Source: Candidatus Sulfotelmatobacter sp.
GTDB lineage: Bacteria > Acidobacteriota > Terriglobia > Terriglobales > Acidobacteriaceae
Length of the DNA: 64,000 nucleotides
NCBI GenBank assembly: GCA_017883385.1
Contig: JADGNQ010000002.1
Span: forward strand, 62,001 to 126,000
Direction: 5' to 3'
Positions 19,820 to 63,096 of this stretch are shown in pieces. The notes under the pieces were generated by a model. That model did not search any database. It was not told where the DNA came from and saw only the letters and a list, made by a program, of their open reading frames with translations. The position numbers were made by a program, and so were the translations under genes. Within the stretch, counting starts at the first letter, position 1. The number at the start of each line of letters is the position of its first letter.

Positions 19820-19848
19820 GAGAAGGCGCTTCGCAGAAGCGCCTTCTC
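19820..19848 (-). terminator. 13-bp perfect hairpin between the TonB receptor and TPR genes
   Basis: GAGAAGGCGCTTC (19820-19832), a GCA loop and GAAGCGCCTTCTC (19836-19848). It sits 22 bases after the receptor stop codon on the minus strand. No T tract follows, so it may be a 3' stabiliser or partial attenuator that lowers expression of the downstream genes. Confidence 0.5.
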
Positions 19849-54600: not shown

Positions 54601-54622
54601 GATTGCGCTGCAGACACATCCA

Positions 54623-54660
54623 CCGGGCTTCGCCCGGCGGACAGCCGCCCTCGGCTGTCC
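54623..54660. repeat. Double-hairpin repeat between brnA and alr
   Basis: CCGGGC-TTC-GCCCGG (54623-54637) is followed directly by GGACAGCCG-CCCT-CGGCTGTCC (54639-54660) and CCAC. The second hairpin has the same 9-base stem as a repeat inside the molybdopterin oxidoreductase gene (62826-62847). It stands in the gap between convergent genes and may also work as a bidirectional terminator. Confidence 0.65.
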
Positions 54661-54677
54661 CCACATGAACACGTTCT

Positions 54678-60873: not shown

Positions 60874-63096
60874 TCATGGGGATGGCTTGGCTAACTCTAC
60901 CTCAACCAAGACGGAATAAAACGTAGCCGAGTTGCCCATGTCAGTAAGTTTTTCTGAAGTCAGGCTGTTGATGCTCTGGAAACCAGGGGTCATTTTGGCC
61001 CAATTAAGGGTCGCGGAGACGACTCCCGGCTGAACTTTGCCGTCAACCCGCGCCCGCAGCAGAATGTCACCCCGACGGTTGAAAACGCGCACCCTGTCGC
61101 CGTCGGCGATGCCGCGCGGCCGAGCGTCGTCCGCACAAATCTCCAGCAAGCCTGGCTCCTCCATTTCCTGAACGGAAGGCAAGTTCGTAAAAGTGGAATT
61201 CAGGAAGTTGTCCGCCTTGCGGGCCAGCAGTTCCAGAGGGAGTGCTTTTCCTTGCCCACCATGCCGCGACTCCGAAGGCGGTGTGAAATCGCACACAGGA
61301 TCGAGCCCCTGTGCCTTGAGATCTTCACTGTAAAGCTCTGCCTTGCCCGAAGGCGTGCGGAATTGGCCGTGAGCAAACGGAAGAAACGGAGCTGGTTGTG
61401 TGAAAGTGCCGGGTGTGGGACCGGGTCTTTGACCCGGTCGTGCGGAGCAAAGCTCCGCTGCATCGTTGTCAGACGCCGAATCCTCAAAGTTGAACCGCAC
61501 GGGCCCCCGTTCGAGCCGCTCGCGGCTGATCCCATCCAGCCAAGGATCCGTCGACTCTAGCGCCGTGTCGATCATCTCGTCGACCGTCTCGCGGAAGCAA
61601 TCTTCTTCGAATCCCATCTTTTGCGCCAACGCGCGGAAGACTTCGACATTTGAGCGGCATTCTCCCAGCGGCGGAATCGCCTGATTCGACACCTGCAAAT
61701 AATAGTGGCCGTAGCCCTTCTGCAGATCCTTGTGCTCGAAGAACGTCGTCGCCGGCAACAGAATGTCGGCGTAGTCAGTCGTATCGGTGAAAAATTGCTC
61801 GTGCACCACGGTGAAGAGATCGGGCCTCTGCAGGCCGCGAACGACATCGTTATGCTGGGGACAAACCGCCGCCGGATTGGAGTTATAGACGAACAGCGCC
61901 TTGACCGGCGGATCATTCTGCGTATTGAGCACGCTGCCCAGTTCGACCATATTGATGGTGCGAGCCTCGCGTCCCAGCGCGCTCTTCATCAAGTCCGGAC
62001 GCTTCAACGCCGCGGCATTGAGATCGACCGCGCCGCTAAGGGACATTTGCAGCCCACCGCCGACTTCCTTCCACGACCCCGTGATGCAGGGGAGCATGGC
62101 AACGGTGCGCGTCGCCATCCCGCCGTGCTCGGAGCGCTGCACACCGTAATTCAGGCGGATCACCGACGGTCTTACGGTCGCGTATTCGTGCGCCAGCTTG
62201 CGAATGTCCGCAGCGGCGATTCCGGTCCAGTGCGCCACGCGCTCGGGCGGATACTCTTTCACCTTCTCCTGTAGTTGCTCAAAGCCGAGGGTGTATTTTG
62301 AAACGTAGTCGGCGTCGTGAAGATTTTCGCCGATGATCACATGCATTATGCCCAGGGCCAGGGCTGCATCCGTACCCGGATTGATGGGCAGGTACCAGTC
62401 GGCGCACTCCGCGGTCCGCGTGCGGTAAGGATCAATCACCACCAGCTTCGCACCGTTCCGCCGTGCCTCAACGATGAACGGCCACAAGTGCACGTTGTTA
62501 CCGTGAATGTTGGACGCCCAGGCAATGATGTATTTGGAATGACGGAACTGCTCCGGTTCCGTGCCGAGTTTCACGCCTAAAACCGACTTCAGCCCGGCTT
62601 CGCCAGCCGCCGAGCAAATCGTCCGATCGAGTTGCGAAGCCCCCAAGCGGTGGAAAAATCTGCGATCCATCGAGGCGCCATTCAGCGCGCCTAGGGTCCC
62701 ACCGTACGAATAAGGCAGGATCGCCTCGCTACCGAACTCCGACGCAACAGCGCGAAAGCGCGCTGCGATCTCGTCCAGCGCCTCATCCCACGAAATGCGC
62801 CGCCAGGTGGACTCAGGTTGTGTGGGGACAGCCGCCATCGGCTGTCCATGCGGAGCGAAGCTACGCTGCTCCGCCGCTGGCCCCTTCGCCGCAATCCTCC
62901 GCATCGGGTACAGTACTCGATCCGGCGAATACACTCGGTCGAGATACTTCGCCACCTTTGCGCATAGAAACCCGCGCGTCACCGGGTGCTCCGGATCGCC
63001 CTGGATCCTTGTCGCCCTGCCTTCCTCCACGGTAATCAGCACGCCGCAGGCATCGGGGCAGTCGTGCGGACACGCGGCATGGACGACCTGTTTCAT
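60874..63096 (-). CDS. Molybdopterin oxidoreductase (formate-dehydrogenase-like) with two repeat-encoded insertions
   Basis: 740 residues from ATG 63096; the longer frame to 63459 overlaps the promoter and has no family character. A [4Fe-4S] domain is at the N-terminus: ACPHDCPDACG (Cys9, Cys13, Cys17) and GFLCAK (Cys45). The molybdenum ligand is probably Cys161 in DRTICSAAGEAG. WASNIHGNNVHLWPF and VIDPYRTRTAECADWYLPI bind the cofactor, and the C-terminal domain (IADGDRVRVFNRRGDILLRA) closes it. There is no Tat signal, so it is cytoplasmic and probably soluble. Residues about 72-97 and 541-569 are extra segments encoded by palindromic repeats. No electron-transfer partner gene is adjacent. 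The substrate is unknown. Confidence 0.9.
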   Translation of the reverse strand: MKQVVHAACPHDCPDACGVLITVEEGRATRIQGDPEHPVTRGFLCAKVAKYLDRVYSPDRVLYPMRRIAAKGPAAEQRSFAPHGQPMAAVPTQPESTWRRISWDEALDEIAARFRAVASEFGSEAILPYSYGGTLGALNGASMDRRFFHRLGASQLDRTICSAAGEAGLKSVLGVKLGTEPEQFRHSKYIIAWASNIHGNNVHLWPFIVEARRNGAKLVVIDPYRTRTAECADWYLPINPGTDAALALGIMHVIIGENLHDADYVSKYTLGFEQLQEKVKEYPPERVAHWTGIAAADIRKLAHEYATVRPSVIRLNYGVQRSEHGGMATRTVAMLPCITGSWKEVGGGLQMSLSGAVDLNAAALKRPDLMKSALGREARTINMVELGSVLNTQNDPPVKALFVYNSNPAAVCPQHNDVVRGLQRPDLFTVVHEQFFTDTTDYADILLPATTFFEHKDLQKGYGHYYLQVSNQAIPPLGECRSNVEVFRALAQKMGFEEDCFRETVDEMIDTALESTDPWLDGISRERLERGPVRFNFEDSASDNDAAELCSARPGQRPGPTPGTFTQPAPFLPFAHGQFRTPSGKAELYSEDLKAQGLDPVCDFTPPSESRHGGQGKALPLELLARKADNFLNSTFTNLPSVQEMEEPGLLEICADDARPRGIADGDRVRVFNRRGDILLRARVDGKVQPGVVSATLNWAKMTPGFQSINSLTSEKLTDMGNSATFYSVLVEVELAKPSP
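61414..61465. repeat. Palindromic repeat inside the molybdopterin oxidoreductase gene, copy 2
   Basis: GTGTGGG is followed by a hairpin GACCGGGT-5 bases-ACCCGGTC (61419-61439) and a second hairpin GCGGAGC-AAA-GCTCCGC (61442-61458). The 25 bases at 61441-61465 match copy 1 (62849-62873) at 21 positions. It is translated within the gene as DNDAAELCSARPGQRPGP. Confidence 0.75.
62821..62874. repeat. Palindromic repeat inside the molybdopterin oxidoreductase gene, copy 1
   Basis: TGTGGG is followed by a hairpin GGACAGCCG-CCAT-CGGCTGTCC (62826-62847) and a second one GCGGAGC-11 bases-GCTCCGC (62850-62874). The first hairpin is shared with the copy at 54639-54660, the second with the copy at 61441-61465. 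It is translated as AAEQRSFAPHGQPMAAVPTQ. Confidence 0.75.

Follow-up and report, generated by a model that had tools for sequence, protein, structure and literature searches.

Short hairpin elements of the REP type are described as having GTAG or GTGG placed 0-2 nt 5' of a hairpin with a fully paired stem of 7-20 nt and a loop of 2-5 nt (PMC6006769, in the passages drawn on here), and their spread is described as poorly understood (PMC8266576, likewise in part). Other described kinds are the repeats of the CGTC group, among which RPE-4 and RPE-6 are filed and which Table 1 of PMC3733652 lists as lacking an association with transposase genes, and MITEs, defined in the same paper as 70-300 bp long with 15-30 bp terminal inverted repeats. 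In one case in the sections of PMC3733652 used here, recB of two species has different REPs in nearly the same position. Intergenic REPs are without aligned reference points. An element inside the gene studied here is pinned to one place by the reading frame and by conserved protein on either side, which allows dozens of species to be compared at one codon interval as to whether an element was gained or lost, which way it points and which stem it has.

The window, by which we mean the whole stretch of 64,000 nucleotides that was analysed, contains a molybdopterin oxidoreductase gene of 740 aa on the minus strand (60874..63096), recognized from its open frame, Pfam domains (Molybdop_Fe4S4, Molybdopterin and Molydop_binding), PDB relatives (acetylene hydratase and formate dehydrogenases) and a fold search. 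Two double-hairpin copies in this one gene had been claimed in the earlier note, and folding, a pattern search and the open frame confirmed them. Copy 1, in the linker called site 1, lies on the plus strand at 62822..62866 (covariance-model match of 66.7 bits, and folding) and consists of a GTGG head (62822-62825), hairpin A (62826-62847, with the GGACAGCCG stem, termed A1), an AT spacer and hairpin B (62850-62866), in which one pair is mismatched. Copy 2, at site 2, lies on the same strand at 61415..61458 (34.8 bits, and folding), with the GTGG head at 61415-61418, hairpin A at 61419-61439 (GACCGGGTC stem, termed A2), a GT spacer and hairpin B at 61442-61458. The layout is a GTGG head, standing immediately 5' of hairpin A in both copies, then a 9-bp hairpin A with a loop of 3 or 4 and a 7-bp hairpin B, about 48 nt in total. 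The head strand is opposite to the mRNA in the host gene. Recounting on the sequence again gave agreement at 21 of 25 positions between the 25-base cores (61441-61465 and 62849-62873), and the first hairpins do differ in sequence, A1 in copy 1 and A2 in copy 2, both after GTGG. As to the claim of different reading frames, it held for hairpin B, which in copy 1 is set off from hairpin A by a spacer of 2 nt, but not for the GTGG head, whose frame is shared by the two sites (read as VPT and GPT). Both copies are within one gene, as claimed, but the window also holds a third, a member of the A1 family on the minus strand (54618..54665) located 18 bases downstream of a stop codon of a plus-strand frame; no frame through it scored as coding, and it too forms two adjacent hairpins when folded as single-stranded DNA. 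Copies 1 and 2 each fold as single-stranded DNA into two hairpins, with z values of -5.9 and -4.7 on the head strand, and chance pairing was rejected, as none of 200 shuffles folded as well. The pattern TGCGGAGCNAAGCTNCGC, allowing up to two mismatches, occurred twice in the window against 0.10 expected. A repeat search of the region listed many short two-copy families, none of which added to the finding. The longest perfect hairpin found in the window, of 13 bp, is at 19820-19848.

A covariance model built from 12 copies was used to look for the element elsewhere, as the earlier note had proposed, and at least 150 matches were obtained in the own 6.8-Mb genome, 150 being as many candidates as were scored, so that the core is not confined to this gene. 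In 849,900 bases made up of the window and 40 further stretches there were 38 full-length matches with E up to 0.0004, about 45 per Mb, a density that may be too high because the stretches came from large contigs and some were picked for holding copies. Matches were present in all 37 genomes of the genus that were searched (the own genome and 36 congeners) and, under strict filters and with no more than 98 candidates scored per genome, in none of 24 genomes outside it. The exact combination of A2 with a GCNGAGC-type hairpin B was rare (8 places in 4 of 41 genomes). Another repeat, of the form CCCTGAGCGA...TCGAAGGG and with some copies inverted or degenerate, appears to be nested in the loop or to replace hairpin A at L140:10976-11046, in the site-2 linker of L064 and in the site-1 linkers of L075, L076 and L081, and this placement suggests that REPs were inserted into REPs.

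Five Y1_Tnp matches were found in the own genome, and one of them, a RAYT gene on contig C275, has an element at each end. The C275 protein matches PF01797 over its cut-off and, read by eye, has DHVH as HuH motif and YLLENP as a Y motif ending in NP, the two features that characterize RAYTs (Y1 transposase class 2). With this protein as query, 24 of 41 genomes of the genus yielded relatives (E up to 1e-15). A GT[GA]G-headed hairpin was located within 350 bp at 28 of the 34 RAYT loci examined, and none within that distance at the other six (L279, L294, L296, L057, L058 and L061). All seven loci whose RAYT is 69% or more identical to C275, one in the own genome and the others in six relatives, had stems of the A1 type, and A1-like stems occurred also at the less similar RAYTs L280 (63%) and L292 (48%). 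Another RAYT is flanked by A2 stems at L300 and L301, in two relatives; no A2-flanked RAYT was found in the own genome. Other stems occur elsewhere, and the stem type goes with RAYT similarity. Since A1 and A2 stems flank different RAYTs, the two copies in the oxidoreductase gene belong to two REP families with a common hairpin B, and the view of the earlier note that they are one element has to be given up, as only hairpin B is shared. In head position, stem and loop size, high dispersed copy number and RAYT flanking, the window copies agree with what is required of REPs.

The earlier note had likened the element to the palindromic elements of Rickettsia. In-frame insertion into genes is indeed common to RPEs (PMC3733652, in the sections used here), and one could imagine such elements, or MITEs that depend on an ordinary transposase and end in inverted repeats, sitting in genes with no RAYT involved. 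We consider this very improbable. The GT[GA]G head and the RAYT genes flanked by matching stems are traits of REPs, unlike RPE-4/6, and a Rickettsia CGTC-type element was rejected on these grounds; a MITE was rejected since the unit is about 48 nt long, with two adjacent hairpins and one head, and not 70-300 bp with terminal repeats. A class 3 Y1 transposase repeat was rejected as well, because of the GT[GA]G head and the YLLENP motif as against the CnGA foot and Q ending of that class.

The two linkers were compared across species in 52 unique genes of a clade that was delimited by us from the homologue table (63 rows less 11 duplicates) and in 46 outside rows, the latter including Gemmatimonadaceae, Pandoraea and a cyanobacterium. 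Of the 46 outside rows, 39 had exactly 10 aa at site 1 and the other seven 12-19, while at site 2 the length was 8-14 aa in 40 rows and 16-18 in the other six; the longer outside linkers included those of five Edaphobacter/Granulicella-like rows (19 and 16 aa at sites 1 and 2) and of L180 (16 and 18). Clade linkers were mostly longer, up to 44 aa at site 1 and 59 at site 2, and some were short, such as those of L172 (15 and 12). The gain of about 25-29 residues claimed for the host protein is correct in that both places are longer than outside the clade, but the linkers measure 32 and 41 aa. With a strict detector, site 1 of the 52 clade genes (3,996 bp) yielded 24 elements and site 2 (5,112 bp) yielded 14, together 38 in 9.1 kb of linker, in contrast to one in 101,208 bp of the gene remainder. 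The same detector found none in the 3,135 bp of linker of the 46 outside rows and three in the 91,365 bp of their gene remainder. Alignment to homologues lacking the inserts, as suggested in the earlier note, thus gave short linkers free of strict elements outside the clade, and no sharing of the extra residues, without repeat similarity, by unrelated genera. Leaving out linkers under 24 nt, 24 of 49 rows had an element at site 1 and 13 of 50 at site 2. Reversed elements were present in L161 (site 1), L166 (both sites) and L173 (site 1); L086 was scored as reversed and is ambiguous. The outside row L205, from a contig titled as a Klebsiella pneumoniae metagenome assembly, a title that may be wrong, has linker lengths as in other outside rows. 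The site-2 linker of L073 contains a tandem array whose units, of about 15 bp, include the head (CGGTTTGTGTGGGAA-like) but have no hairpins; in translation the array gives PTQTV repeats. In L063, one in-frame TAG was counted within the matched oxidoreductase reading frame.

A structure of the host protein predicted from 43 sequences had a mean pLDDT of 90, with values under 50 in segments of at least three residues only at 85-92 and 540-566, both inside the inserts. Mapping of the inserts, which the earlier note had asked for, thus placed them on the two lowest-confidence segments of an otherwise confident model, and both sites are probably flexible, tolerant linkers.

Among 70 distinct elements of the own genome, 18 were scored as intragenic and two as borderline using a home-made coding score, so that about a quarter of the genomic copies examined lie inside genes, the count that the earlier note had called for. 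Copy 1 of the window is one of the two borderline cases, and homology places it in the gene. In the contiguous stretches and the window, 8 of 37 elements were scored intragenic, or 9 with copy 1. Each of the 17 other host frames that were submitted matched a Pfam family; the host genes include those for MnmG, MnmE, RsmG, ParB, LpxB, alanyl-tRNA synthetase, a Y-family polymerase and a UvrD-type helicase, and a tRNA-guanine transglycosylase gene contains two elements. Intragenic elements in mnmG, mnmE, rsmG and parB were noticed in L146 (contig C139) and L140 (contig C421); these four genes are often near the replication origin. By eye, 16 of 20 intragenic elements were assigned to two of the six frames, giving peptides like AELRSAGQPGAAVPTQ or HVGTAAPGCPAE; the p-value of 0.000025 for this frame bias is optimistic because the two favoured frames were noticed ahead of the test. 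A linker of alanyl-tRNA synthetase had 10 strict elements in 3,063 bp, as against one in 57,696 bp elsewhere in the gene. These elements were in 6 of 29 rows (one of 30 was dropped), with head-to-head pairs in four of the six, and degenerate copies were present in further rows. A second linker of this protein (query residues about 400-485; L310-L339) varies from 16 to 138 residues among congeners, and no strict REP element was found in it in these rows.

The linkers of the oxidoreductase are rich in A, G, P, T and S, and could be taken for ordinary low-complexity protein linkers whose likeness at the DNA level came about by chance or as a codon effect. That reading is hardly credible in view of the shuffles, none of which folded as well, of the genomic copies, which number at least 150 and of which some three quarters of the examined ones lie outside genes, and of the empty linkers in all 46 outside rows. 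Instead we regard the inserts, with a probability of about 0.8, as REP-type elements of RAYT-associated families of the genus, which became fixed in frame in two tolerant linkers of the oxidoreductase. On this reading, RAYT proteins would move the elements as single-stranded DNA, and only in-frame insertions into flexible loops would survive. Hairpin A could be exchanged in place, either by RAYT action or by recombination at the common head and hairpin B. Observed at the level of sequence are the dispersal, the match of stems at RAYT genes, the linker enrichment, the differences in stem and orientation and, at site 1, pairing with compensatory changes. The mobile-element reading offered in the earlier note is in this respect upheld, by the many genomic copies, the matching stems at RAYT genes, the outside homologues without inserts and the position of the inserts in low-confidence segments.

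Changes of stem type were counted on a gene tree built without the linkers by a quick method, with 13 of 51 inner branches open and five partial genes of the 52 omitted. At least 14 changes were required among the 23 occupied rows at site 1 (orientation counted, L086 included) and at least 4 among the 13 occupied rows at site 2, or at least 20 and 11, respectively, with empty rows as a state. The sisters L066 (A2) and L068 (A1) differ in the stem, with hairpin B and spacer unchanged. In the pair L071/L074, L071 has an A3 element adjoining a decayed A1 copy, and since the decayed A1 is kept, this pair represents an addition rather than a clean exchange. The A1-AT-B consensus at site 1, itself built from rows picked for matching the element, was matched with up to 4 mismatches in 51 by 8 of 31 rows. 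The AT spacer is common to these eight rows, L165, L066 (A2) and L076 (hairpin A broken). Of the rows with this spacer, L062, L063, L064, L068 and L072 are on one main branch of the tree, L079 and L080 are on another, and L165 falls in neither; L091 could not be placed because of its shortness. Outside the oxidoreductase gene, the AT spacer was present in none of 83 A1 elements with hairpin B (97 A1 examined). It did occur in 4 of 13 A2 elements with hairpin B (15 A2 examined), and a degenerate copy within alanyl-tRNA synthetase of L321 has it too. Many copies at site 1 likely come down from one old insertion, perhaps with exchange between A2 and A1; because the spacer occurs also in A2 elements and in L321, convergence is possible, and the single old insertion is what we infer rather than observe. 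No exact empty site was found.

In 12 rows at site 1, 99% of cells were paired, and four pairs had changed on both sides compared with 1.1 in shuffles (2 of 500 shuffles as high). For site 1, consensus-matching rows showed a difference of 0.50 at 4-fold sites of the gene and of 0.057 in the element; for site 2 the two values were 0.46 and 0.051. Inside the element, 4-fold sites differed by 0.069 and first and second positions by 0.074 (8 rows picked for matching); third positions vary no more than the others in these rows, and a purely protein-level repeat was rejected. Since the rows were picked for matching, the contrast shows retention of the sequence at the DNA level in some lineages, without giving the cause, which could be selection, repair of one arm from the other or renewed insertion. 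A rival reading is that the copies, while of REP origin, are kept because their hairpins act in the mRNA, for instance by making translation pause between domains or by affecting mRNA stability. The hairpins do remain paired at the same coding site, and the low difference at 4-fold sites in the element (0.069 against 0.50 elsewhere in the gene, in matching-picked rows) would agree with such a function. This reading is nevertheless unlikely, given that stem types and orientations vary among species, that many rows are without an element, and that the same family occurs in many unrelated genes and between genes.

Strand signals in hairpin B bear on the same question and, together with its loop type, hint at single-stranded DNA. 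On the head strand, the loop closed by C-G was GAA in 75 of 110 aligned copies, GNA in 87 and AAA in 12. As DNA, a mini-hairpin that combines a GNA loop with G-C pairs has unusual stability, and the melting temperature of GCGAAGC is 78 C (PMC4686876, in the part drawn on here). Unequal changes in stem B gave G.T 12 times and A.C once on the head strand (p 0.003; mostly extragenic copies), whereas stem A had no strand bias (G.T 3, A.C 4). The bias in stem B points to folding of the head strand, though possibly in a transcript of that strand, and G.T is thereby favoured on the strand opposite to the mRNA, which speaks against a function in the message. A bolder extension of the REP reading, tentative and well short of an even chance, is that the coding copies are live substrates. 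RAYTs acting on the head strand might swap hairpin A, and with it the REP family, in resident elements while frame and hairpin B are retained; hairpin B, a DNA mini-hairpin of the d(GCGAAGC) type, might anchor a two-part REP unit as its constant half, and REP modules might serve to rewrite protein linkers of the genus continually.

Apparently, two sites in one gene record the movement and change of tiny hairpin elements across a soil acidobacterium and related species. Two questions thereby become testable: whether RAYTs swap the stems of REPs that are already in place, and whether it is as DNA that hairpins in coding sequence are maintained. The results also suggest that conserved enzymes of the genus regularly receive linker peptides from REPs.

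The closest known systems are the GTAG/GTGG REPs and REPtrons (RAYT / TnpA_REP), with which the acidobacterial elements share a perfect hairpin that has GT[GA]G directly 5' of it; in both, copies are numerous, flank RAYT genes, occur also within genes and form head-to-head pairs. In contrast to these, the acidobacterial family has a second hairpin after hairpin A, and no description of a two-hairpin REP unit was found in the passages of the REP literature used. The REPs of E. coli have a bulged stem, unlike the elements described here (PMC8266576, in part). RPEs are also short palindromic DNA in frame in many genes, but RPE-4/6 are filed with the CGTC group, which is listed as having no transposase association (PMC3733652, in part). 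Class 3 Y1 transposase repeats of Solibacter usitatus are likewise acidobacterial, with about 600 copies and atypical structures associated with a Y1 transposase (PMC6006769, in part), but have the foot CnGA and a Y motif ending in Q where the C275 protein has YLLENP. TIRYT genes of Koribacter versatilis, a named relative, are Y1 transposases with flanking repeats too, but these are terminal inverted repeats and not REPs (PMC3733652, in part). Elements of the present kind were not found described for Candidatus Sulfotelmatobacter in the open-licence PMC papers searched, a scope that gives no proof of absence. Published intragenic REPs are alike in being in frame in conserved genes, with double insertions in one gene (PMC3733652, in part). 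Because such REPs, double insertions and the recB case have been published there, the kind is already known. They differ from the present case, as far as the sections used go, in that two linkers of one gene are here occupied by several stem types, in both orientations, in dozens of species. The hosts of the published intragenic REPs (section 15 of the paper that describes the recB case) include genera that we take to be Opitutus (terrae) and Xanthomonas. What appears to be new, compared with all of these, is the unit of two hairpins, together with a turnover at fixed coding sites throughout a clade.
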